NCBI GenBank assembly: GCA_905234785.1
Contig: CAJOIP010000016.1
Location: forward strand, 1-34,698
Length of the DNA: 34,698 nucleotides
Direction: 5' to 3'
Source: an uncultured Eggerthellaceae bacterium
GTDB lineage: Bacteria; Actinomycetota; Coriobacteriia; Coriobacteriales; Eggerthellaceae
Numbering within the stretch: the first letter of the stretch is position 1; each line of letters begins with the position of its first letter. The notes beneath the pieces were generated by a model. It was given only the letters and a program-made list of their open reading frames with translations. It did no database searches and was not told where the DNA came from. A program made the translations under genes and the position numbers. Positions 8,921 to 34,698 of this stretch are shown here, piece by piece.

Positions 8921-10537
8921 TTACTTCGTCGGCTTCGCGTTGGAATCGGAATGGCCGAGCCCGGCGGCACCGCCCATGTCGAGGGCCTGCGTCTCGAGGA
9001 ACTGCGCGCTCTCGATCTCCTCCTTGATTTCGGAGAGCTCGCGTACGCGCGCCGTGAGGCTCTTGCGCGCCTCGTCGACCTTCAGCTCGTCGTTGCGCGC
9101 GTAGTAGGCGTCGCTGCCGAAGTGCGATATGAACCGCGTCGTCACCGTGCGAGTGGAAAGCTCGGCCAAGAACACGAGCATCTCGCGGCTGTTGCCGAAG
9201 CAGTCCTCGACGAACGTGATGGCGTTCTCGATGTGGCGCTGCCCTTCCTGCACGAGCGGCTCGATGGCGTCGACTTCGTCGCGATACGCTGCGCTGACGG
9301 CGTCGAACGCAGCGGGGCCTTCCTCGGCCTGCGCCGCGCGGGCGGAATTGGCCACATCGCGCATCTTGCGGATGAGGAGGTTCTCGGCGCGGGCGAACGA
9401 CTGCGACGCCGTATTGCCCGAAACCTTGCGCGCTAGGTCCTCCTCGCGTTTGCGCAACGGTGCCATGATGGCGTCTTCAAGCGTCGCGCCTTCCAGCAGC
9501 TCGGGTTTGGCACGGCGCAGCTCGTCGCGCAGGGCGAGCACGAGGCCTTCCTGGTCGAGCGCCGCTAGACACGATACCGAAAGCGCGTCTAAGATCAAGC
9601 CCAGAAGCGCCACGCGCTCGTCGAACAGGGCCGCTTTCGCACGGTCAACCACCTCGCGGCTGGCGCTGCCGTCGAGCACCTTCGAAATCTGGTAATCGGA
9701 ACGGTACTTCTCGAACAGCGTATAGTACACCGAGAACTTGTCGGCGATGTCGTCATCGCGCAGGAACTGGCTGAACAGCACCTCGTCGCAGGGAATCCCC
9801 TCGGCCTCGTACAGCGTGACAACGCGTGCCAAATCCTCCCACCCGCGGGCGGTGACGAAGCTCTTGCCGCCGCCGGGCTTGCTTTCAACCTTGTAGAAGC
9901 AGTCGGGCTTGGCCTGCAAGAACGTGGTCACGGCAGGATGCAGCCCCTTCTCGGTGGCATAGCGGCGCCACACGGCGTAGTCGGGCTCGACGTCGAGCTC
10001 GCGCAGGCGGTCGAGCGTCACGACGTCGAACTCGTGCACCGACTTGTTGTACTCGGGCGGGTTGCCGGCACAGACGATCACCCAGTCCTCGGGAACCTTG
10101 TGACGGCCGAACGTCTTGAACTGAAGGAACTGCAGCATGCTGGGATACAGCGTCTCGGACACGCAGTTGATCTCGTCGAGGAACAGGATGCCCGCACGCT
10201 CGCCGGTTGCTTCCATGTAATCGTAGATCGACCCCACGATCTCGCTCATGGTGTACTCGGACGAGTCGTACTCGTAGCCCTCGAAATTCCGGCGGATGAT
10301 CTGCGGAAGCCCCAGCGCGCTTTGGCGCGTGTGGTGCGTCATCGAATACGACACCACGCCGATTCCGAGCTCCTGGGCGATCTGCTCGATGATGGCCGTC
10401 TTGCCGATGCCCGGCGCGCCCACCAGAAACATCGGTCGCTGCTGCACCGGCGGAATCATGTACATGCCGGCATCGTCCCGGCGCATGTACGCGCGCACCG
10501 TATCCTTGATCTGCTGTTTCGCTGTTGCGATATCCAT
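8921..10537 (-). CDS. MoxR-type AAA+ ATPase
   Basis: This is a 538-aa protein. Residues about 5-260 form a MoxR-like AAA+ module: Walker A GAPGIGKT (40-47), Walker B ILFLDE (117-122), sensor-1 asparagine in CAGNPPEYN (N159) and an arginine-rich VTLDRLREL box. The rest (about 260-538) is mostly helical, with a coiled-coil-like end (ELSEIKEEIESAQFLETQALD). MoxR ATPases act with VWA-domain proteins as chaperone-like machines that load metals or remodel complexes. ATG 10537 is preceded by GGAGGAACA; a GTG at 10597 overlapping the upstream stop has no ribosome site. It lies 59 bp behind the VWA gene. The C-terminal extension is larger than in minimal MoxR proteins (~320 aa) and may bind the LRR partners. 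Confidence 0.9.
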   Translation of the reverse strand: MDIATAKQQIKDTVRAYMRRDDAGMYMIPPVQQRPMFLVGAPGIGKTAIIEQIAQELGIGVVSYSMTHHTRQSALGLPQIIRRNFEGYEYDSSEYTMSEIVGSIYDYMEATGERAGILFLDEINCVSETLYPSMLQFLQFKTFGRHKVPEDWVIVCAGNPPEYNKSVHEFDVVTLDRLRELDVEPDYAVWRRYATEKGLHPAVTTFLQAKPDCFYKVESKPGGGKSFVTARGWEDLARVVTLYEAEGIPCDEVLFSQFLRDDDIADKFSVYYTLFEKYRSDYQISKVLDGSASREVVDRAKAALFDERVALLGLILDALSVSCLAALDQEGLVLALRDELRRAKPELLEGATLEDAIMAPLRKREEDLARKVSGNTASQSFARAENLLIRKMRDVANSARAAQAEEGPAAFDAVSAAYRDEVDAIEPLVQEGQRHIENAITFVEDCFGNSREMLVFLAELSTRTVTTRFISHFGSDAYYARNDELKVDEARKSLTARVRELSEIKEEIESAQFLETQALDMGGAAGLGHSDSNAKPTK

Positions 10538-12351: not shown

Positions 12352-14607
12352 CTACAGGTCGTAGTCATGGGTCCGTCCTCCGAACCGCTCGCGCTTGGCC
12401 TCGAGCAAATACGCCGAAGAGGCTGCGTCGCGCAGGGTGGTCACGCGCTCGATGATCTCGTCGAGGTTGCCCGCGTTTATGTAGCCGCGCTCTATGAGCT
12501 TGTCGAACACGTCCCTGTCGTCATGCAGTGCCACGTCGACGCATATCTGCTGAATGTGGTTGCGAAGCAGGCGCTCCATCATGTCGCGCGTTCCCTTCGT
12601 CAGCATGACGGGATCGTCGAGCCTCTCGAGGATGAACCGCGCCTGCTCGTAGGCGCTGATGTTGCCGGGCTTGCGCGGGGCGTTGTAGTCGTGCGCGTTC
12701 GCCAGGCAGATGTCGCGCTGCTCGACGATGCCGCGCACGTTCACCCAGCTCGCGCCCCCAAGGCCAATCGATATGGCGCGCACGGCGCTTTCGGAATCCG
12801 GGAACGTGAAATCGTACACGAGCCTGCCTTCCACGGGCTTTTGCAGCTCGACGTGAATATGGCGTATGCGGCAGCGGGTGGAAAACCCGTTCGCCCCTAT
12901 GGTGGCCAGCCGCGGGTTCAACGACAGGTACTCGATGCCGTGCGCGTTCGAGAACGCGAATTCCTCGACGCGCGTTATGTCTTCCGGCAGCACGACGTGC
13001 GGCTCGGCGCTCGTGAACACGACGACGCTCGCTCCGTCAGCGGTCCTACGGCACAGCATGCCGCACGTGACGAAGAACGCCTCGTTTCCCGGCGCTACTT
13101 CCACATGCGCGAGCGAGGGCATCTTGTTGCCATAATGGGCTCCGTACGTGACGAGCGCACGCTCGCCGAGCACGCGCAGCGCAGCAGGAACGCGGAACTG
13201 CTCGATGTTCGTGTCGAAGAACGCCTCGTCGCCGATCTCCTCGACGGAATCGGCGAGCTCGATGCGCCGCAGCGCCTTGCAGATGCGAAACGCCGATTTG
13301 CCGATTGACCGCACCGAACCGGGCACGCGGACAGACGCGATGCGGTCGTGGTAGGCGAACGCGAGCGGGTCGATGGCAACCGCGCCGTCCATCACGTCGT
13401 AGCTTTCCATGTCGGCGTCTACGAGCTGCACGAGGTGGGGGCCGTCGGCCTCGCGCCGGTACAGGCCGCCTTCGCCGTCGAGGAAATGCCGCTCGCATCC
13501 CTCGTCGATGGTGAGCGTGCAGTTCGGCCCCGAATGCACGACGCGGGTATGACGCGTCACCGAAGCGCCGAGATGGCGAATGCTCGCGGGCATCGCCAGC
13601 GCCGAAATGCCCGAGCCCTCGAACGCGGAATCGCCGATGAACTCGAGGCCCTCGTTCAGGCGCACGCGTTCGAGCGCGCGGCATTGCATGAAGGCCTTGT
13701 CGTCTATCGTCGTGAGCGCCGCCGGCGCGTCGAAGGAGCGGATGCCCGTGCCCGCGAACGCGAACGGCCCGATCTCGGCGACGCTTGGCGGCAGCTGCAC
13801 ATCCTCTAGCGCGGTTGCGCCATGGCAGCACTTGCGCGCGACGGCCGTGCAGCCCGGTTTCACGGCGAGCTTCTGCACGGGGCGAACGAGCGCCAGCAGC
13901 ACGCTTCCATCTTTAGCGTACAGCGCATCGCCGTCGGTCATGAGGTACGGGTTGTCTTCATGCACCGTGAACTCCACGAGGCAAGACCCTTGGAAGGCGC
14001 CGGGCTCGACTTCGCGGGCGGCCCGGCCCACGACAAGGCGCGCCAGCTTGTCGCTCGCGAACACGCCACGGCCGATGGTTTCGAGCATGTCGGGCAGCAC
14101 GAGCTCCTGAAGCGCCGTGCATTGGGCTATCCAGCTGGGGTCGAACGTGGCGACGTTCGACGGCAACACGAGGCGGCAAAGCGCGGTGTCGCCCCGAAAC
14201 GCCCCCGTGCCGATGTTCGCCACGCCATCGGGGCAAATGATCTCGCGGATGCGGTCGTTGAGCGCGAATGCGGCAGGCCCTATGGCCACGACCGGCAATC
14301 CGTCGATATCGCCTGGGACATGCAGCACGCCCGCGGACCCCGCATACGCATCGATGCGCACGAAAGCCCCGTCAAGCACTGCGTAGGACCATGTGCCGCC
14401 ATCTTCATCCGACCACGCGCCCCTGCGCGTGACCGCACCGGCCGCCGCCTCGTTCTGGCGTAACGCCATTTCGCGGCGACGCTCGGCAAATTCGTCGATG
14501 TAGGCGATCCTCTCCTGCGACAGCACGACGCCCACGCCCTTTTCGGCTGTGGCATCGAACGTCATCAGAGGATGAACGACCTCGGGAGTACCCTCGCCTA
14601 TCGCCAT
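12352..14607 (-). CDS. Large BspA-like (LRR_5) leucine-rich repeat protein
   Basis: This is a 751-aa protein with no signal peptide, membrane anchor or sorting signal, although most characterised BspA-like proteins are surface exposed. An N-terminal charged helix (about 25-60) precedes a module with W.YAVLDGAFVRI and VPGDIDGLPVVAIG. Two sets of LRR_5 repeats follow (for example LQELVLPDMLETIG, LERVRLNEGLEFIG, LRRIELADSVEEIG, IEYLSLNPRLATIG). The last ~150 residues are non-repeat and helical (ARFILERLDDPVMLTKGTRD). ATG 14607 follows AAGGAG. It is 48 bp upstream of the VWA gene in the same direction and is probably co-transcribed. A cytosolic target-recognition or scaffold role for the MoxR/VWA machine is inferred only from context. 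Confidence 0.88.
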   Translation of the reverse strand: MAIGEGTPEVVHPLMTFDATAEKGVGVVLSQERIAYIDEFAERRREMALRQNEAAAGAVTRRGAWSDEDGGTWSYAVLDGAFVRIDAYAGSAGVLHVPGDIDGLPVVAIGPAAFALNDRIREIICPDGVANIGTGAFRGDTALCRLVLPSNVATFDPSWIAQCTALQELVLPDMLETIGRGVFASDKLARLVVGRAAREVEPGAFQGSCLVEFTVHEDNPYLMTDGDALYAKDGSVLLALVRPVQKLAVKPGCTAVARKCCHGATALEDVQLPPSVAEIGPFAFAGTGIRSFDAPAALTTIDDKAFMQCRALERVRLNEGLEFIGDSAFEGSGISALAMPASIRHLGASVTRHTRVVHSGPNCTLTIDEGCERHFLDGEGGLYRREADGPHLVQLVDADMESYDVMDGAVAIDPLAFAYHDRIASVRVPGSVRSIGKSAFRICKALRRIELADSVEEIGDEAFFDTNIEQFRVPAALRVLGERALVTYGAHYGNKMPSLAHVEVAPGNEAFFVTCGMLCRRTADGASVVVFTSAEPHVVLPEDITRVEEFAFSNAHGIEYLSLNPRLATIGANGFSTRCRIRHIHVELQKPVEGRLVYDFTFPDSESAVRAISIGLGGASWVNVRGIVEQRDICLANAHDYNAPRKPGNISAYEQARFILERLDDPVMLTKGTRDMMERLLRNHIQQICVDVALHDDRDVFDKLIERGYINAGNLDEIIERVTTLRDAASSAYLLEAKRERFGGRTHDYDL

Positions 14608-15007: not shown

Positions 15008-15976
15008 TTACATCGCCTTCGGCACCCACGTGCGCAGGCTTCGGAACATGTCCTCGTCGCCCTCTTCGATCGTCTTCGAAATCGCCGCGATGAGCTCTTC
15101 CTTCTCGTCGGGCAGAATAGCCCGGAACCCCTGCGGGAACGTGGAGTGCTTCGCGGCGAATATGGTGCTGGCATTCACACGCTCCACGAATGCGCGCATT
15201 TCCTCGTAGCGCTCGATCTCGCCGGCTTCCGTGAACTCCCCACGGTCGACTGCATACTTCAGCGGCGCGTACATCTTCGTGTAAGGGTCGAAGATCAGCG
15301 TCATCGACACGGCGCCCGTGATGTCGGGCTGCGCGAAGTTGATGAAATCGGCGGACTTCTCGGCATGGCCGAACCCATAACCATGGCCACCCATGCCGAA
15401 CATGATGGTGCACGCCCACTGAAGGGCGGATTCCCTCAGCTTGCCGCCCGCTTCGTACAGCTCTGCCGAATCGTAGCCCTTGCTCATAAGCGCAAGCAGG
15501 TTGTCGTCGGCGCTCTCCACGCCGAAGAACAGCCTGTCGTAACCGGCGTCTTTCAGCGCGTTCAGCTGCTCGACCGATTTGTCGCGCAAGTCATCGATGC
15601 GCCCGTAACTGCCGATGGACTCGAGGTTCGGCAGATACGTGTAAATGAGCTCGGAGATTTCCATGAGCTCGTCGTAGCTCAGGTGCATAGCGTTCGAGCC
15701 CTGCAGGAAAATGCGCTTCACCGGCATGTCCTTATCGCCGTTCGCAATGAACCGCAGATAAAACGCCACTTCATCGAGATCGACTTTCCCGTAGGGCACG
15801 TTCTTGAAGAACGTGCAGTAGCGGCAAGCATTATGCGAGCAGCCGCGCGTGACCTGCAAGAACTGCGTATCGTCGCGCCACTCGTACGACGGCGAGTTGA
15901 CCGGACTGGCAAAGCGCGGTCCGAACTTGAATTCATTGCGCGATTGCCACGAGCTTTCCTTCTCATTGAACTGCAT
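15008..15976 (-). CDS. Radical SAM protein (COG1032-like)
   Basis: This is a 322-aa protein with a [4Fe-4S]-binding motif TRGCSHNACRYC (C46, C51, C54). The spacing is C-x4-C-x2-C, one residue more than the canonical CxxxCxxC, a form I associate with COG1032-type B12-less radical SAM proteins. Further radical SAM features are FLQGSNAM (strand after the SAM loop), SIGSYGRI, and GYDRLFFGVESADD. No cobalamin-binding domain precedes it. ATG 15976 follows GGGAGG. Its substrate is unknown. It leads the run of minus-strand genes ahead of the LRR-VWA-MoxR cluster and is 62 bp behind the large activase gene; it could belong to either set. Confidence 0.88.
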   Translation of the reverse strand: MQFNEKESSWQSRNEFKFGPRFASPVNSPSYEWRDDTQFLQVTRGCSHNACRYCTFFKNVPYGKVDLDEVAFYLRFIANGDKDMPVKRIFLQGSNAMHLSYDELMEISELIYTYLPNLESIGSYGRIDDLRDKSVEQLNALKDAGYDRLFFGVESADDNLLALMSKGYDSAELYEAGGKLRESALQWACTIMFGMGGHGYGFGHAEKSADFINFAQPDITGAVSMTLIFDPYTKMYAPLKYAVDRGEFTEAGEIERYEEMRAFVERVNASTIFAAKHSTFPQGFRAILPDEKEELIAAISKTIEEGDEDMFRSLRTWVPKAM

Positions 15977-16038: not shown

Positions 16039-19000
16039 TTATTTCCTCAAGCTCTCTCGCTCCTTTGCCACGAAGCGCGGCGACGAGTCGAGGTCAAACT
16101 CGAATCCCTCTTCCAACAGCGCCTCTACCAGCAGGCGGTTTTCGCCTCCGATTTCCTCGCGCGGGACCAGCGACACGATGCGCCGGTGCGTCGTGTCGAA
16201 GAAGATCTTGCCGCCCGTGTTTCCGGTCTTGCCTGTCGTCGTGGCATCGGGATCGACCTTTCCAGCGTATTCGCGCAGCGCCTCTTCCAGGCTTCCGACG
16301 CTCGAACTGCGCTTGTACGGCTCGATTCGGACCGGTCGCGCTGCGTCATGGCGTTTCGCGGCCTCCACGGCAAGCCGTATCCTGTTCTCGCGGTTGAGGG
16401 CGGAAGAATCGGAATCGTAGTCGACGATCGTGATGGGCATGCTCGGATACCGCATGGCAAGCTCATGCGCCGCGCCACGCGATTGCACATGCCCCTTCAG
16501 GCAGCCGAAGCTCTGCAGGTAAATAACCGCGTCGACACCCGCCTTGCTGAAGCGGTCGAGCTGGTCGAGGTAGCGCACATCGTCGACGTAAACGAGGTCG
16601 TGCTCGGGCATGACCACGCTGCAGCCAAGCCCCTCGAGCATGTCCACGATGCCTTCGTTCATGTCCTCGTCGAACACGAGCAGGGGGTTGCCAATCAAGC
16701 CGATGCGCGTGACGTCGCCCTCCGCAGACGCCGCTTCGGCAACACGCGGCTCCTCGGCCGCGCTATCAGCCGTCTCCGCCCCCTTCCGGCCAACCAAAGA
16801 CGCCAAGAGCCTAATGAACGAACTGCACTTCGGCTTGCCCGCCTCTTGCTTTGTTGCCTCCTGACCTGAAGCCCCGGCTTCGCGCTCCGCGAAATACGTC
16901 AGGCACTTCACACACGTTTCGGGGACGTCCTCGCCGGCATTCGCCCGCGACATGAGTTCGCGCAACGTAGAGCACGCGTCCGGAAGCGTAAGCGCCATTT
17001 CGGCCATGTCGCGCGACAGGGCGCTTTCGCGGCCCTTCCGCAGCCCGCGCATCTCGGCGAGCGTGCGCAAGCGGATCTTGATATGCGACGTGTCCACCAT
17101 GTCGTCTATCTTCAACTCGGTGAACGAGTGCGCGCGACGCGCGTCGGCGAAACCAGCCGCATCGTAGCCGCATCCGAACGAGCGGATGGCCACCACGTCG
17201 ATTTGCGGGTTGGCATCTGCGAAGGCAATCGCCGTGCGCAGGTTAAAGGCCGCATCCCATCCACCATCGCGCGCGGGCTTGAACGAATCGTCTATGCCGG
17301 CAGGCGTGATAACGGCGAAACCGAGTTTTTGGAGCATCTCGTCGATGCCGTGCATCACGGCAGAATCTATGTGATACGGGCGGCACGCAAGCACCGCAGC
17401 ACGGCGGCTCGGGTCGGCTGCGAGCCATTCAAGCACGCGGCCCGTTTCGCCAAGCAGCTTCTCCCGGAAATCGGCCTGCGCGCCAAACGCCGCGTGTAGG
17501 GCTTCGCCAAATTCTTCGCGCGTGAACGCATCAGCTGCTGCTGACAGGAACGAGAGTTCCTTGAACAGCACGTCTTGCGCGGCGGTATCGTCAAGCATGG
17601 CATGCAGGCTCTTGCAGGGCAGAAGCGGCGCGATAAGCCTCTCGGCGCCGACGTTGTCGCGCAGGGCAGACGCGTACATATGCGACACGGCGCAATGGCG
17701 CCCTCGCAGGTACCGTGGCATGAAGACCACGTCGCATCCGTCTGCAAGCAGCCCCTGGTAGCGCAGATGGGAAAGCTTCGCGGGGCTGCACACGCTCTCG
17801 GATGGAACGGTTTCAGCTGCTAGGTTCTCGAGCTGCGGGTATCCGTTACCATTCGGCATGCGTACCGAGAATCCCAACTTGGTAAGCAGCGTATGCCAAA
17901 ACGGCGTATGCTCGTAAGCGTCGAGCGTGTTGGAAAGGCCCACCGTTACGGAACCGCGCGGCGAAGCCGATTCGGTAGTAGCGTACTCGGCAAGCAGCTC
18001 GCGTTCTATTTGGGCCATGTTGGGAACCTGCGACCATTCCGTCTCGCTGGCGGCACCAGTCGACGAGAACACCTTGTCGCACTTGTTCCCACTCGCGAAG
18101 CGGCGGCCGCCGCCGAAATCGACGAGCGTCACTTGGCAGCTGTTCCCGCAACCGTTGCAGCGCACAGAGCGGCGCTCGGGGTCCATCTGCATTAGTTCCT
18201 CGGCGCTCACCAGGCCCGACACCGAAGCGCGCCCCGAAGCATCCCGTTGCTCGACCCATGCGTCCCGCGCGAGCAACGCAGCGCCATAGGCGCCCATGAG
18301 GTGCGCAATGTCGGGGCGTATGACCTCGCAGCCCGTCACTTTCTCGAACGCCCGCAAAACGGCATCGGACTTGAAGGTGCCGCCTTGCACGACGGCGACC
18401 GGCCCCATGCTCGAGGCCCGTTCCTCGCCGACGATGCGCACGAGCGCGTTGTTCACGACCGCATACGCGATGCCTGCGGCGATATCGGGTTTCTCGGCGC
18501 CGACCTTTTGCGCATGGCGCACGCGCGACGTCATGAACACAGTGCATTTCGTGCCGAGGTCGATGGGTCGTTTCGCCTGCAGGGCCACCCCGTTGAACGC
18601 CTCCTGGCTCATCTTGAGCGAGCGGGCGCTTCCCCCGACGAAGGCGCCGCAGCCGCTCGAACACGCTTCGTTCAGCACGGCGTCGACCACCACGCCATCG
18701 CGCACCCACAGCGCCTTCATGTCCTGTCCGCCGATATCGAGCACGAACGTGGCATCGGGCCGAAGCTCCAGAGCTGCGCGCAAATGGGCGGCCGTCTCGA
18801 CCACGCCCGCATCGAATCTCAGACCGCATTTCAGCATGTCCTCGCCGTAGCCCGTGACAACCGCCCGCCCGACGCGCAAAGGCTCGGATCCTTCCGTCTT
18901 CGCGCTGATCATGCGCAGCGATTTGGCGATCATATCGCGGGCAACCTCCAGCGTATCGCCTTCGGCTTCTTCGTATTCCGAGGACAGCAGGTTGCCTTCC

Positions 19001-20046
19001 TTGTCGATGACCGCACACTTGACGGTAGTCGAACCCGCATCTAACCCGATGAACACCTCGTCACGCGCATCGCTGTAGTTGCCCAACCGCACATGCCCTT
19101 TGGAATGGCGCGCTTTGAAATCGGCAAGCTCGTCTTCGTTTTCGAACAGCGGCTCGAGCCTCTTCAGGTCTTCCTTGAACTCCACGGTCTTGCGAATACG
19201 CCAGTTCAATTCCTCCAAATCGACCTTCTCGGCAGTGCGCGCTTCCATAGCGCAGCCAAGCGCAGTGGCAAGATGCGGACGCGTGGGGACGATGATGCGT
19301 GCGTCCATGTCCTTCAACACGTGCGTGAACGATAGGCGCGCAGCAGGGTTCATCGCTATGACGCCCCCGAGGAGCACGACGTTGCCCCTGATGGGCCTGC
19401 CGCACGCAAGCCCGCTGACCGCCTGGCGGGCAACGGCTTCCAGCGCGCTGGCCGCGATATCCGCTTTGTCGACGCCTGCGTTCAAAAGCGGGCGGATGTC
19501 GTTTTGTGCGAACACAGCGCAACGCGATGCGATGGGATAAATATGATGCGATGCGAGGGCGAGGTCGCTTACCTCGTCGGTATGCAGGCCCACCATGTGC
19601 GCAGCTGTTTCGACGAAGCTGCCCGTGCCGCCGGCGCACGTGGCGTTCATGCGCTGCTCGATGCCCTCAGGGCCGGACAGGTATATGATCTTCGAATCCT
19701 CACCGCCAAGCTCGATGACAACATCGGCATCGGGCACCAGCTTCTCGACGGCGCCTGTCGTGGCAATGACCTCCTGGACGAAGGGGACGCCCAGCTGGCT
19801 GGCCAAATCGATGGCAGCAGAGCCCGTGAAGGCGACGCGCGCCTCTGTGATGCCGTTGCTTAACGACAACGTGCGGATAGTCCGTGCGATCGTCTCGCGG
19901 ACATCGAGGTTATGCCGCTCGTACAGGCACCCGACGATGACGTCGCGCTCGTCGATGACGACGCTTTTCACCGTCTTGGAGCCAGCATCGATGCCGATGC
20001 GCATCTCCCCGCTGACCTTCTTCAAGTTCGCATCGTCGAAAGCCAT
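16039..20046 (-). CDS. Tandem 2-hydroxyacyl-CoA dehydratase-type activase fused to dehydratase-related domains
   Basis: This is a 1335-aa cytosolic protein. Residues about 15-270 and 330-600 are two ASKHA-fold activase domains of the BcrA/BadF/HgdC type (GIDAGSKTVKSVV and GLDAGSTTVKCAV phosphate loops). Each keeps the two cysteines that hold an intersubunit [4Fe-4S] cluster in HgdC (CAGGTGSF with SRCAVF; CSSGCGAF with GTKCTVF). A Cys cluster follows (RCNGCGNSCQV, about 630-640), then DUF2229/COG3580-like (about 700-1050) and COG3581-like (about 1110-1335) regions, each with further cysteines. The family donates low-potential electrons to dehydratase-type proteins at the cost of ATP. It is divergent from the LysR gene. 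Large fused homologues are common in anaerobes, but their substrates are not established. Confidence 0.88.
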   Translation of the reverse strand: MAFDDANLKKVSGEMRIGIDAGSKTVKSVVIDERDVIVGCLYERHNLDVRETIARTIRTLSLSNGITEARVAFTGSAAIDLASQLGVPFVQEVIATTGAVEKLVPDADVVIELGGEDSKIIYLSGPEGIEQRMNATCAGGTGSFVETAAHMVGLHTDEVSDLALASHHIYPIASRCAVFAQNDIRPLLNAGVDKADIAASALEAVARQAVSGLACGRPIRGNVVLLGGVIAMNPAARLSFTHVLKDMDARIIVPTRPHLATALGCAMEARTAEKVDLEELNWRIRKTVEFKEDLKRLEPLFENEDELADFKARHSKGHVRLGNYSDARDEVFIGLDAGSTTVKCAVIDKEGNLLSSEYEEAEGDTLEVARDMIAKSLRMISAKTEGSEPLRVGRAVVTGYGEDMLKCGLRFDAGVVETAAHLRAALELRPDATFVLDIGGQDMKALWVRDGVVVDAVLNEACSSGCGAFVGGSARSLKMSQEAFNGVALQAKRPIDLGTKCTVFMTSRVRHAQKVGAEKPDIAAGIAYAVVNNALVRIVGEERASSMGPVAVVQGGTFKSDAVLRAFEKVTGCEVIRPDIAHLMGAYGAALLARDAWVEQRDASGRASVSGLVSAEELMQMDPERRSVRCNGCGNSCQVTLVDFGGGRRFASGNKCDKVFSSTGAASETEWSQVPNMAQIERELLAEYATTESASPRGSVTVGLSNTLDAYEHTPFWHTLLTKLGFSVRMPNGNGYPQLENLAAETVPSESVCSPAKLSHLRYQGLLADGCDVVFMPRYLRGRHCAVSHMYASALRDNVGAERLIAPLLPCKSLHAMLDDTAAQDVLFKELSFLSAAADAFTREEFGEALHAAFGAQADFREKLLGETGRVLEWLAADPSRRAAVLACRPYHIDSAVMHGIDEMLQKLGFAVITPAGIDDSFKPARDGGWDAAFNLRTAIAFADANPQIDVVAIRSFGCGYDAAGFADARRAHSFTELKIDDMVDTSHIKIRLRTLAEMRGLRKGRESALSRDMAEMALTLPDACSTLRELMSRANAGEDVPETCVKCLTYFAEREAGASGQEATKQEAGKPKCSSFIRLLASLVGRKGAETADSAAEEPRVAEAASAEGDVTRIGLIGNPLLVFDEDMNEGIVDMLEGLGCSVVMPEHDLVYVDDVRYLDQLDRFSKAGVDAVIYLQSFGCLKGHVQSRGAAHELAMRYPSMPITIVDYDSDSSALNRENRIRLAVEAAKRHDAARPVRIEPYKRSSSVGSLEEALREYAGKVDPDATTTGKTGNTGGKIFFDTTHRRIVSLVPREEIGGENRLLVEALLEEGFEFDLDSSPRFVAKERESLRK

Positions 20047-21178: not shown

Positions 21179-22453
21179 ATGGACGTCGTCAGGACATTCG
21201 GCACTATTGTCAGCAACACGGCGCGCACCGATGCGGACCGAGCGCGCAAGCTGCTGCTATTCGGGTGGAAGGCGCAGATGCTGAAGCTGTGCGCCGCGCC
21301 CGACAAGCGGCTTCCCAAGTCGCGCCAGTACGCCGCGCAGGTGGCCATGCGAAAGGTGCTCGACGTGTACGCAGACCCCTCGCATGCCGCCGCCATGAGC
21401 GTGTTCGCGCCGTACGAGCCCTTGGGCGCAGCGGGCATCACGCCGTTTTCCGTCGAGCAGATATCGTGCTGGATGGCAGGGTCGCAGGCCGAGCGCTTCT
21501 TCCTGGACGCCGCATCCGATGCGGGTTTCACCGAGACCATGTGCTCGTACCACCGCACGTTTTTGGGCGCATGCGCAAGCGGCGTGCTGCCCAGGCCCGC
21601 ATTCGCCGTGTACACATCGCTCGCGTGCGATGGCAATCTCATCACCTTCCCCTGGCTGGGGCGCACCCAAGACATCCCCCGCTTCTGCATCGACGTTCCC
21701 TACGAGCGCAGCGAGCAATCGGTCGCCGACGTCGTGGCCCAGCTGCACGGTTTGGTCGACTTCGTGGGCGAGCAGGTGGGAAGGCCGGTTTCCGACGAAG
21801 CGCTGCGCACCACGTGCGAACGCAGCTGGAAGAGCGCGCTTGCCTGGCGGCGGTTCCTCGCCGCGTCTCCTGGCCGCAGGCTTCCCGCCGACATGACGAG
21901 CGAAATGTACGCGTTTTTGATGAACCACGTCGTGTTGGGCTCGCCTGAGTCGGAGCGGTTCTGCACGATGCTCGCCGACGAGATGGAAGGCGCGCGGCGA
22001 AGCGAGGGCCTGCGCATCGTCTGGCTACACACCATGCCGTTTTCGCAGGCGCCCGCCATCGAGCGGCTGAACTTCAACGACCGCGTGTTCATAACGGCGT
22101 GCGACCTGGCAAGCGATCCCATGCTGATAGACGTCGACCCCGCAGACCCCTATGACGCCATGGCCCGGCGCCTCGTGTACTCGTGCATGAATGGCCCCGT
22201 GCAGGCGCGCATCGACCGCGCGCTCGACATGGTCCGCCGCACGCAAGCCGATGGCGTCATCGTGTTCGGGCATTGGGGCTGCAAGGCCACGCTCGGCGCG
22301 TCTTCGCTCATCGCCGCCGGGCTCGAAGACGCAGGCGTCCCCTGCCTGGCCCTCGACGGCGACGGCATCGACGCCGTAAACCGCTCGGACGGGCAAACCG
22401 CCACCCGCTTAGACGCGTTCATCGAGCAGCTCGAGGCCGGGAGGCGCGCATGA
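21179..22453 (+). CDS. 2-hydroxyacyl-CoA dehydratase subunit/double-cubane-protein-like (HgdB family)
   Basis: This 424-aa protein has the HgdB/FldB-like organisation of two Rossmann-like halves and about ten cysteines. The C-terminal motif FGHWGCKAT is characteristic (family HWGC). Other conserved-looking sites are ETMCSYHR, ACASG, and SLACDGN. Members carry a [4Fe-4S] or double-cubane [8Fe-9S] cluster that accepts electrons from an ATP-driven activase and performs difficult reductions or dehydrations. The gene ends in a 4-bp ATGA overlap with the following fusion gene, showing translational coupling. Spacing from LysR is 108 bp, with TATGCT at 21112 as a possible -10. There is no gene here for a separate second subunit other than the fused one. 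The substrate is not evident. Confidence 0.85.
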   Translation: MDVVRTFGTIVSNTARTDADRARKLLLFGWKAQMLKLCAAPDKRLPKSRQYAAQVAMRKVLDVYADPSHAAAMSVFAPYEPLGAAGITPFSVEQISCWMAGSQAERFFLDAASDAGFTETMCSYHRTFLGACASGVLPRPAFAVYTSLACDGNLITFPWLGRTQDIPRFCIDVPYERSEQSVADVVAQLHGLVDFVGEQVGRPVSDEALRTTCERSWKSALAWRRFLAASPGRRLPADMTSEMYAFLMNHVVLGSPESERFCTMLADEMEGARRSEGLRIVWLHTMPFSQAPAIERLNFNDRVFITACDLASDPMLIDVDPADPYDAMARRLVYSCMNGPVQARIDRALDMVRRTQADGVIVFGHWGCKATLGASSLIAAGLEDAGVPCLALDGDGIDAVNRSDGQTATRLDAFIEQLEAGRRA

Positions 22454-24144
22454 TCTGCACCGTCTGCAAGTACACGCCGATAGAGCTGTTCGCCGGATTC
22501 GGCGAGGAGTGCAGCTTCCTGGAAGAGATGCCCGCATCGCTCGACCGTGCCGAGGCGGCCTCTCACGCCAACCTCTGCGGGTTCGGCAAGGCGCTCATCG
22601 AAGAGGCGCTGTCGGGTCAGGTTGAGCAAATGGTGCTCGTGAACTGCTGCGACGTCATGCGGCGCTGCCACGACGTCGTAGCGGCTGAGGCGGCGTGCGA
22701 CCGGCTTTTCCTCATGGACCTGCCACACACCTGCGGGCCCTGCCAGGTGACGTCGCTCGCCAGGTCCCTGAAGCAGCTGCGCGACGAGTACCGTGAAGCA
22801 ACGGGCATCGAATTCGACCTGAAGACCTGCCAGGCCGCTTTCGAAACGCGAGAGGCCGATCCTGGCACCTACGTCGCCATCCTCGGCGCACGCGCCGGCA
22901 AACAGCTCGAAGACGCCGTGCGCAATGCATTCGGCCTTGCGGTTCGAAACCTCACCTGCACGGGCACGCGTTCGCTTTCCATGCCCGGGCAAGCGCTTCT
23001 AACCGACGACGAGGACGAGTTCTTCGAGGCGTATGCCCAAGCGCTCCTTGCGCAGGTGCCCTGCATGCGCATGGACGACTCGGTTGGCAGGCGCGCGCTT
23101 CTGGAAGACCCGAACCTGGCGGGCATCGTGTACCACACCATGAAGTTCTGCGACTTCTACAGCGTGGAATACGCCGAAGTCGCAAGTCGCGCGCACGTGC
23201 CCGTGTGCAAGATAGAATCAGACTTCACCGCTCAAAGCACCGAGCAGCTCCGCACGCGCGTCGAGGCGTTCGCAGAGGCGCTCGGCTTCTCGGACGGGCT
23301 TTCAGGGTTCGCGCCCTCGACCAGCAAGGAGACTTTCGGCATGACACGGGAAACCGAGGCGCAAGGACGCTATTTCGCGGGTATCGACAGCGGGTCCACC
23401 AGCACCGACGTCGTCATCGTGGACGGCGACGGCACCATCATCTCGACCCTCATCGTGCCCACGGGCGCGGGCGCGTCGAAGAGCAGCGAGGCGTGCCTGG
23501 CATCCGCGCTTGAGCAAGCGGGCCTCACCCGGGAAGACCTCGCGCGCGTCGTGACGACGGGGTACGGCCGCGCCTACATCGGCGAAGGCGACGCCTCGGT
23601 CACCGAAATCACCTGCCACGCTGCCGGTGCCCGGCACCTCGACGCCACCGTGCGGACCATCATCGACATCGGCGGGCAGGACAGCAAGGTCATAAGCCTC
23701 GACGCCGACGGTCATGTTGCGAAGTTCGTCATGAACGACAAATGCGCCGCCGGTACGGGGCGCTTCCTCGAGATGATGGCGCGGGCGCTGCAAATATCCC
23801 TTGACGAGATGTCGGAGACGGGCCTTGCCTGGCGCGAGGACATCGCCATTTCCAGCACGTGCTCGGTGTTCGCCGAGTCCGAGGTAGTAAGCCTCGTCGC
23901 CCAGAACAAAGACGTGGACGATATCGTGCACGGCCTATGCGAATCGGTCGCCGCCAAGACGTCGACCCTCGTGAAGCGCGCAGGCGGGACCGGCCCCTAC
24001 ATGATGACCGGCGGCGTTGCGGCAAACGCCGGCGTGGTGGCGGCCATCGAGCGTCGCCTGGGCCAGAAGCTCATCGTCAGCGACAAGGCGCAGCTGTGCG
24101 GCGCTTTAGGCGCTGCCCTGCTGGCACGGGGAAATCCCTCCTAA
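22450..24144 (+). CDS. HgdB-like domain fused to HgdC/BadF-type ATP-dependent activase
   Basis: This is a 564-aa fusion. Residues 1-295 are a 2-hydroxyacyl-CoA dehydratase subunit-like domain (MICTVCKYTPIELFAGFG, LVNCCDVMRRCHD, HTCGPCQ, YHTMKFCDFY). Residues about 308-564 are an ASKHA activase: GIDSGSTSTDVVIVDG, DIGGQDSKVI, and the two cluster cysteines C432 (KCAAGTGRF) and C471 (TCSVFAE), 39 residues apart as I recall for HgdC. The upstream gene's stop overlaps this start (ATGA). Subunit and activator are usually separate genes, so the fusion implies fixed 1:1 supply. It probably works with the 424-aa protein as a complete reductive unit. No break is visible. Confidence 0.87.
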   Translation: MICTVCKYTPIELFAGFGEECSFLEEMPASLDRAEAASHANLCGFGKALIEEALSGQVEQMVLVNCCDVMRRCHDVVAAEAACDRLFLMDLPHTCGPCQVTSLARSLKQLRDEYREATGIEFDLKTCQAAFETREADPGTYVAILGARAGKQLEDAVRNAFGLAVRNLTCTGTRSLSMPGQALLTDDEDEFFEAYAQALLAQVPCMRMDDSVGRRALLEDPNLAGIVYHTMKFCDFYSVEYAEVASRAHVPVCKIESDFTAQSTEQLRTRVEAFAEALGFSDGLSGFAPSTSKETFGMTRETEAQGRYFAGIDSGSTSTDVVIVDGDGTIISTLIVPTGAGASKSSEACLASALEQAGLTREDLARVVTTGYGRAYIGEGDASVTEITCHAAGARHLDATVRTIIDIGGQDSKVISLDADGHVAKFVMNDKCAAGTGRFLEMMARALQISLDEMSETGLAWREDIAISSTCSVFAESEVVSLVAQNKDVDDIVHGLCESVAAKTSTLVKRAGGTGPYMMTGGVAANAGVVAAIERRLGQKLIVSDKAQLCGALGAALLARGNPS

Positions 24145-31494: not shown

Positions 31495-32196
31495 CTAGCC
31501 GAGCGGAATCATCTTGTACAGGCAGACCCTGCCCACGTTGGCGTCGGCGGCGGTGGCGTCGACGTCCGCGAGCTCGCGGGTCACGTAGCCATCGGCTTCG
31601 ACCCACAGGTGGTACTTCTTGCCCTCGACCTTGCGGAACCAGAAGTCGCCGAACTCGTCGGTCGTGGTCTTGAAGACCTCGGCCTCGGGGTTGCCCTCCT
31701 CCTGCATGGTGACGGTGGCGCCGATGATGACCTCGTCGACCATGGGGTCGATCACCTGGCCGGCAACCCAGCGCTTGGGAAGGTTCAGGTAGTACACGTT
31801 GGACTTGGGGTCGAGCTTCTCGGCCTTCGCGATCTCATCGGCGAATTCGGCCTCGTCGCCGAAGCGCAGGCCGCCCACCGCGCAGGCGTCCACGCAACGC
31901 GGCACCGTCCAGCCGTCGTCCAGCAGGTGCGCGCACCCCGTGCAGCCCTGCGGGATGTTCAGCTCGGCGTTCCAGTACACGCCCTCGAACTTCTCGGCGA
32001 GGTCTTCGCGGCCCTTCGCTTTCTCGGGGTCGATGACGATGAGGCCGTCCTCGCGCTCCTGCAGGACTTCGGGCGCGTACTCGCGGATGGCCTCGGTCTG
32101 CGCGCCGATTATGGGCATGTAAGTCATGTTCACCTTGGGCACGCTGCCGTGAACCTCTTGCTCCACCTTGCACCAGAACTGGCCGGTGTCGGACTG
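31495..32196 (-). pseudogene. Small Fe-S subunit of a pyrogallol-hydroxytransferase/catechol-dehydroxylase-type enzyme, 5' end missing
   Basis: The frame (234 codons) begins in the conserved interior segment QSDTGQFWCKVE, with no start codon and no N-terminal ferredoxin cysteines. It keeps one Fe-S set, QGCTGCAHLLDDGWTVPRCVDAC. A C-terminal transthyretin/CNA-B-like beta domain (GATVTMQEEGNPEAEVFKTT, FWFRKVEGKKYHLWVEADGY) follows, as in the small subunit of pyrogallol transhydroxylase. Where relatives have PCxHCxxAPC, this protein reads PIIGAQTEAI, and the CPYG position reads KFEG. A GTG at 32166 could start a 223-aa product. It directly abuts the large-subunit gene in another frame. Confidence 0.75.
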
Positions 32197-32197
32197 C

Positions 32198-34513
32198 TCC
32201 GCCGCGGTCGAGACCGCCCATGCCGGTGACGATGCTGTCGACGCGGGCGCCGTGGTCCTGGCTGATGACGGACGGGCGAATGCGCTCGGTCACGTACGCG
32301 CCGCCCAGCACGCTGCCGCGCTCGTTGAAGATGCGCACGATGTCGCCATCCTTGATGCCGAGGCGACGCGCGTCGACCGGGTTGATCCAAACGGGCTCGT
32401 ACTTGTAGCCGTCGGGGCCGGTGACCTTGCAGGTCTCGATCTCGCGCAGCCACGTGATGTCGTCGTGCTCGGCGTGGACGCGCCAGCGCGGGTGATTCGA
32501 CATCATGAGGAACGGATAGTCCTTGCCGCGGTCGTTCGTCAGGCGCTCGTGGTGCGCCTCGGACTCCTCGATCCACTTCGGTACCGGCGGGCGCTCGCCG
32601 TCGTCGCCCCAAACCTGTGCGATGCCGGTCGCGTAGAACTCGATCTTGCCAGTCGGCGTGGCCAGCGGGTTGTTCTCGGGGTCCTCGTAGAAGGCGCGCA
32701 TGCCGATGGGCTCCGCCTTCCACTTGTCCTCGTCCATGAAGCGGATGGGCAGGTAGCCCTTCTGCAGGAACTCGCCGTAGGGCATGTGCTCCTGGCAGCC
32801 GCCGAGCGTATAGCTGCGCAGCTGCAGCGAGTCGAAGCCCGGCTCGCCGAACACGTGCTCGGTAGATGTCACGTTTTCCTGCACGGCATCTCCCATGGCC
32901 TCCTTGCCGTCCATGGCATTCTGCTCGCCGAGCGTAGCCGTCATCGGCGGGTAGACCCAGTGCTCCCAGAGCTCGTCTGCCATACCCAGCTTCTCGGCGA
33001 TGGCGAGCACGGCCTCGGCGTCGGACTTGGCCTCGCCCACTTCCTCGACAGCCTTCTCCTCGAGCACGACCATGTCGTTCTCGCCGCACTGCGACGAGGT
33101 GACGATGTCGTGCTCCTCGAACTTCGTCGAGATCGGCAGGATGATGTCGCCGAACATGGTGTCGTTCTCCATCCAGGGGTGCTGCACCAGGTAGAACTCG
33201 ATCTCGGGGCTGCGCAGGGCCTCCTGCATGCGGTTGCCGCCGTTCCAGCAGGTCGACCAGCAGGGTGTGTCGGTCCAGATCATGTGGATGCGCGGGTCGC
33301 CCTTCATGGGGTACTGCCACTCGGTGAACTGGTCCTCGCGCGGTAACCCCGCGATGACGCGGCCGTACCAGGTCAGCGGGTGCTCCTCGTCGTAGTCGCC
33401 CAGGATGGCTTCGGGCACGAGCGTCTGCGGGATGAAGTTGATGAGGTCGGTGCCCGCCACGTGGCCCGTGAAGCCGGCCCACATGAACGTGCCCCACTCG
33501 GGATGCGGCAGAGGGTTCAGGCTGTTCATGCCGAAAATGCCCCACTCCATCATCTTGAACATGTTCTGGCCGGGCTTGCCCACGCCCTGCATGGCCAGCA
33601 GCGCGATCTCGAGGCGCGCCGGCTCGGTGGAGAAGCAGCTGCGGATGTAGCCGCCGCCGTTGCAGTGCACGGTCGAGACCTTGTGCGTAGCCCAGTAGTG
33701 CGCCAGCGCCTTGATGTCGGCGTGAATGGCCGCGCCGTAGTTCAGGTCGGGGCAGATGTAGATCTGCTTGATGCCGATTTCAGACCAGAAGTAGCTGATC
33801 TTGGAAGCCATCTGGCCGCCCCAGCCCCAGGGCGTGGTCTCGGGGTCGCAGCCCACGCAGATGACGGCGTCGGCGTTCTCGGAGATGTCCCAGAGGAGGT
33901 TGGACTGGTAGGCCTGCTGGCCGACCGGGTCCATGCCCCACATGTGCTTGGCGCCCCAGTACCAGCCTTCCCAGCTGTCGGGCTGGCGAGCCTGCAGCGT
34001 GAAGCCGCCGAGCAGGTTCATCAGGTGCGTGTTGCAGCCGTGGCCGCCGTGCATGATTTTCGTCTCTCCGTGGCCGTCGCCCTGGCAGAACACGGCCGGG
34101 TTGCCATACGTGTCGATGACGCGGCGGATCTCGTCGGCGCAGATCTGCGCCGCCTCGTCCCAGCTGATGCGCTCGTAACCGGAAATGCCGCGGTTCTGCG
34201 GGTTGCGCTCGCCGTTCGGGTCCCAGTCGACGCGCTTCAGCGGGTACGGCACGCGGTTCTTAGAGTACACGCGCTTCTTGTAACCGATCGCAAACGGCGG
34301 AAGCGTGGTGACGGTGCCGCTCGTCAGCGTGTGGCCGCGCACCTCGAGCTTCCACGGGTTCAGCTCTTCCTCGGTGTACTTGTCGTCCAGGTGCAGCGGG
34401 CGGATGCGCGCGATGCGCCCGTCCTTCACGTCGACGGCCGCTGTGTTCGAGCCCGAGCCGAAGCCGCAATGACCAGTTGTCTTGTACACGGTCTTGTCGG
34501 ATGTCTTGCCCAT
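32198..34513 (-). pseudogene. Mo-bis-MGD large subunit, pyrogallol hydroxytransferase/catechol dehydroxylase type, 3' end lost
   Basis: This is a molybdopterin oxidoreductase of the DMSO-reductase family, with ~772 sense codons from ATG 34513 (GAGGGAG upstream). It has no Tat signal and no N-terminal [4Fe-4S] motif, as in the transhydroxylase branch. QPDSWEGW (D179, S180, W181) and the histidine in QGDGHGE (H148) appear to match the Asp-Ser-Trp and His active-site residues of Pelobacter transhydroxylase, Ser being the Mo ligand. The end is GGLDRGG, after which the expected terminal region is absent and translation runs out of frame through the small-subunit sequence to 31835. The natural substrate in this group is usually a polyphenol or catechol; here it is unknown. 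Confidence 0.8.
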
Positions 34514-34635
34514 GTGTCTCCCTCTCATCGTGTTTTCACTCGTCGTGAGCGGAGGAAGCAGCCGGCGTGATCATCGTCTGCCCACTCCCCCGAGATGCTA
34601 GGGAAAGCTTAGAACGCACCTTGGCGATTGCGCTC

Positions 34636-34673
34636 CTATCACCCATCTATAGGGTGATAGACAGCTTCTATCA
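34636..34673. promoter_or_regulatory. Three-half-site operator upstream of the molybdoenzyme operon
   Basis: CTATCACCC-N7-GGGTGATAG (34636-34660) is a perfect 9-bp inverted repeat. Its right arm also pairs with TGATAG-N7-CTATCA (34655-34673), giving three spaced half-sites with the same 7-bp spacer. It lies about 120 bp before the large-subunit start codon. Regular spacing suggests a cooperative dimeric activator or repressor (for example LuxR or MarR type). The regulator is not in this window. Confidence 0.55.
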
Positions 34674-34698
34674 TCGCAAATGAACAAAGGGACGGAGG

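Follow-up and report, generated by a model that had tools for sequence, protein, structure and literature searches.

Close to its end, the window (the whole 34,698-nucleotide stretch of Eggerthellaceae DNA that was analyzed, contig C16) carries what is, with high probability, a recently inactivated two-subunit molybdoenzyme operon, damaged by two separate deletions at short repeats and set within a wider loss of molybdoenzymes from the lineage. The locus is an ordinary pseudogene, a case of ordinary gene decay, and the genome has a second molybdoenzyme locus in decay. A first-pass annotation of the same DNA had proposed that one clean deletion removed a few hundred bases, an interpretation that is partly supported. 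The deletions are very likely real, that is, present in the organism rather than in the assembly, and we read them as deletions at short repeats that erode dispensable catabolic genes.

A single open reading frame spans positions 34513 to 31835 on the minus strand. Its residues 1–773 (32195..34513, 773 codons without a stop) correspond to the large, molybdopterin subunit of a Pht-like enzyme (PF21423, PF00384, PF01568; PDB 4v4c_A, E = 2.7e-85), which lacks 70 codons internally and about 60 at its C-terminal end. The remainder of the frame (31835..32194, minus strand; 119 codons and a stop) is a wrong-frame reading of small-subunit DNA and matches relatives solely as out-of-frame translations containing stops. 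This tail had been put at 125 residues; its actual length is 119 (31838–32194). The remnant of the small, iron-sulphur subunit (31495..32205, minus strand; PF13247, PF13620; PDB 4v4c_B, E = 3.4e-24) has lost its N-terminal ~35–40 amino acids, including the first cysteine motif, and retains the Fer4 part and a C-terminal carboxypeptidase-regulatory-like domain. Elsewhere in the window, 16039–20046 (minus strand) and 22183–24144 (plus strand) each hold a large gene with BcrAD/BadFG ATPase domains, one of which also has DUF2229 and one an HGD-D domain; both are of the 2-hydroxyacyl-CoA dehydratase activase type. A BspA-type leucine-rich-repeat protein of 751 amino acids is encoded at 12352–14607 (minus strand), with a VWA-like (DUF2201) gene and the gene for a MoxR-like AAA ATPase beside it.

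The closest intact relative of the operon is found in an Eggerthellaceae metagenome genome (G001, contig C25, DFIX01000039.1; 88–94% DNA identity). Aligned with it, the window falls into three collinear blocks, 31496–32206, 32196–33721, and 33715–34698, whose joins overlap by 11 and 7 bp. Flanking the internal deletion, the two parts of the large-subunit remnant share 98% and 91% identity with the intact 900-amino-acid protein of this relative. The region upstream of the operon (34514..34698, minus strand) is conserved with the relative up to the end of the contig, which stops at 34698, 185 bp upstream of the operon start codon; identity is 93.6% over 33715–34698. Alignments with three further loci (L036, L038, and L050) agree with this picture.

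At the first join, the final codon of the large-subunit motif GGLDRGG occupies 32197–32195, and the small-subunit interior QSDTGQFW begins at 32196 in a different frame, as the first-pass annotation had described. Small-subunit homology extends three residues beyond QSDTGQFW (AAE, 32205–32197), so that the large- and small-subunit homologies overlap by 11 bp (32196–32206, minus strand). The offsets of the two flanking blocks differ by 432 bp, the DNA missing relative to G001, and in the intact sequence both ends of the deletion carry six exact bases, CGCGGC. Between these ends the relative carries the last part of the large subunit (NNLICPNATTSKNAPGEVTNGFLV...), then intergenic DNA, and then the beginning of the small subunit, including CNGCHNCQIACKDEHC. 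The large-subunit C terminus, the intergenic stretch, and the CxxCxxC start of the small subunit are all absent from the window. The distance from GGLDRGG to DTGQFW is 329–357 bp in other intact loci compared with 460 bp in G001, which suggests that the window's lineage lost between ~300 and 430 bp; judged by the spacing in most other relatives, the loss would be ~300–330 bp.

The large subunit had been thought to read correctly up to GGLDRGG. It does not: a second deletion lies at 33715..33721 (minus strand), where the blocks 32196–33721 and 33715–34698 share 7 bp (GCCGACA, minus strand) and 210 bp of G001 is skipped between them. GCCGACA occurs at both ends of the skipped 210 bp in the intact sequence. 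The earlier proposal of one clean deletion of a few hundred bases thus holds for the size of the first loss but not for the number of events. The second deletion removes 70 residues in frame (KWIAPLPNTDAALW...CGVPAAD), around residue 265. The lost segment opens with a conserved P-x-T-D-x-A-L stretch, which in enzymes of the DMSO reductase family lies in the cofactor-binding region; normal folding or cofactor binding of the shortened large subunit is therefore unlikely.

Both segments are kept in relatives, and in the intact sequence a short direct repeat stands at both breakpoints of each. Breakpoints placed at random in this DNA would show a repeat of at least 6 bases in ~0.4–1.4% of cases and of at least 7 bases in 0.1–1.0%. 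The joins suggest that one deletion, between short direct repeats, took the end of the large gene together with the intergenic DNA and the beginning of the small gene, that the other took 210 bp inside the large gene in the same way, and that both arose by RecA-independent slippage or annealing at these repeats. In E. coli, deletions are documented to occur at short direct repeats without RecA (PMC5426353). The outcome would be that no active enzyme is made. A literature search for microhomology deletions in gut metagenome assemblies found no report.

We searched for the missing DNA with three segments. The 70-residue segment was found in 25 of 25 public homologous loci, down to ~42% overall identity, and in the loci of the genus that have the gene. 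The large-subunit C terminus and small-subunit N terminus were found in nearly all complete loci, the exceptions being L048 and the truncated L054. None of the three segments was found in the window, which bears out the claimed absence of the large-subunit end, the intergenic region, and the cysteine-bearing start of the small subunit; alignment with intact homologues, the check proposed with that claim, likewise places these segments in the relatives and not here. Neither another copy of the operon nor the missing DNA was found in the genome's own assembly, and the idea that the pieces lie on another contig was rejected on this ground.

A second molybdoenzyme cluster of the same genome is also damaged. 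Positions 9206–18863 of contig C45 are collinear with contig C116 of genome G005 at ~83–95% identity except for three gaps: 5.8 kb is missing at 15505–15535, 122 bp at 16770–16782, where the overlap is 13 bp, and 34.4 kb at 17475–17597, where 122 bp of unmatched filler is present. At the 34.4-kb gap, a URO-D-like gene has lost its end and a molybdoenzyme gene its first half. Relatives of this molybdoenzyme gene are intact, ~800 amino acids long, and 96–98% identical. Within C45 15505–17597 (loci L126 and L157), the URO-D-like gene is joined to the second half of the molybdoenzyme. In a census made on stretches of the genomes, molybdopterin-oxidoreductase (PF00384) matches numbered 7 here (in 6 loci) versus 32 in G001 and 10–31 in other relatives at least 90% complete. 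MoaC is retained, and genome-wide loss of molybdenum cofactor synthesis was therefore rejected as the cause. The damage to the operon apparently belongs to a wider loss of molybdoenzymes in the lineage. A bolder reading, that the lineage is rapidly shedding molybdoenzymes through repeated short-repeat deletions concentrated in these catabolic clusters, so that members of the genus differ sharply in the phenolics they transform, is one we put forward only tentatively.

Comparable in-gene joins amount to a handful, in either direction, in ~100,000 residues aligned with G001, and a genome-wide epidemic of joins, as expected of a bad assembly, was rejected since it is not seen there. The pattern is local, not genome-wide: the two joins lie within 1.5 kb of each other and, such joins being rare in the aligned residues, form a cluster. 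One case runs in the opposite direction, with ~60 codons deleted inside a gene of G001 (L165, contig C28) relative to its counterpart here (L143, contig C26).

The foremost alternative is an artefact of assembly or library preparation, in which the operon is intact in the organism and the contig skips two segments. The genome is in 83 contigs and resembles a metagenome assembly; this fragmentation, the position of the locus at a contig end, and the closeness of the two joins would suit such an artefact. Short-read assemblers usually work with word lengths far above 7–11 bp. Overlaps of 7–11 bp are too short for the usual programs to join on their own, so some reads would be expected to span the joins. 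Moreover, no other part of the assembly contains the missing segments, comparable joins are rare elsewhere in the sample, and the 34-kb gap on C45 with its 122 bp of filler is unlike the pattern of a library chimera. We consider an artefact improbable. Less probable still is a mixed population in which intact and deleted alleles coexist and the assembly displays the deleted one: the conserved coding sequence flanking the joins suggests a very young event, but the assembly holds no intact copy, and finding both deletions on the same molecule points to more than one passing event.

The remnants themselves speak to the age of the decay. Omega relative to G001 is 0.155 in the large-subunit remnant and 0.17 in that of the small subunit, and no stops or frameshifts beyond the two joins were seen in either gene. 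Because the remnants are open, omega is low, and other disruption is lacking, the deletions look young relative to the split from G001. The long open frame and low omega might instead be taken to mean that the enzyme works in a new, shortened form, which is hardly credible given a large subunit that ends in 119 wrong-frame residues from small-subunit DNA and lacks a 70-residue segment kept in all 25 public loci, and a small subunit without its first cysteine motif. Relaxed selection on the window's branch appeared with one outgroup only (~36 non-synonymous and 54 synonymous changes, against 6 and 41 on the G001 branch); three outgroups gave no clear excess, and it is not used as support. Synonymous divergence (dS) from G001 is 0.34–0.41 for the operon (31496–34698) and 0.75–1.14 for genes on the same contig (8921–21070), although gene order is the same as in G001 along the contig. 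The lower dS of the operon makes it likely that it was exchanged between lineages before it was damaged.

The large subunit has an AhtL-like first domain followed by molybdopterin domains (PF21423, PF00384, and PF01568, all above cut-off), and next to it lies a ferredoxin-type small subunit with a C-terminal beta domain (PF13247, PF13620). Pocket residues of Pht are partly conserved in the large-subunit remnant. By homology, the remnants derive from a pyrogallol-hydroxytransferase-like (Pht, AthL/AthS) enzyme. The catechol dehydroxylases have acetylene hydratase as their nearest relative and stand apart from Pht (PMC7028382). By this criterion membership in the catechol dehydroxylase clade was rejected, since the window protein matches Pht (4v4c) at E = 2.7e-85 and acetylene hydratase only at E = 2e-4. 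Of the proposed abolition of a polyphenol/catechol-type reaction, the loss of function is a safe assumption, but "polyphenol/catechol" was a guess; as far as the evidence goes, the lost activity would be a phenol-ring reaction and no narrower. Literature searches found no report of pseudogenised dehydroxylases in Eggerthella or of pyrogallol transhydroxylase in Eggerthellaceae.

With one open frame of nearly 900 residues, the locus may be misnamed an intact molybdoenzyme by automatic annotation. If the decay is real, presence or absence of phenol-transforming enzymes scored from gene names would be wrong for such strains. The locus would also show, in a young case, how Eggerthellaceae lose their large sets of molybdoenzymes.

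A likeness in mode of loss is seen in a host-adapted lineage of Streptococcus agalactiae (ST260–261) undergoing reductive evolution through deletions both small and large, in which gene loss was driven by non-homologous, RecA-independent recombination and genes were inactivated, as here, with no insertion sequences (PMC3637634); there it was shown with several strains and sublineages, here in one genome. With Pht/AthLS of Pelobacter acidigallici (PDB 4v4c), the operon shares the pairing of a large with an iron-sulphur small subunit and an AhtL-like first domain. The small subunits both have a C-terminal beta domain. Also conserved are the DSW motif, which presumably surrounds the Mo-ligand serine, and a histidine that we take to be an active-site residue. 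However, overall similarity is weak, the alignment shows no conservation of the Pht residues Y152, R153, and W354, and both genes are truncated here. The catechol dehydroxylases of Eggerthella and Gordonibacter (Dadh, Hcdh, Cadh, Dodh, Cldh, and Eadh), which are expanded in the same bacterial family (PMC7028382, PMC12771579), likewise belong to the DMSO-reductase superfamily; unlike them, the window protein is nearest to Pht.
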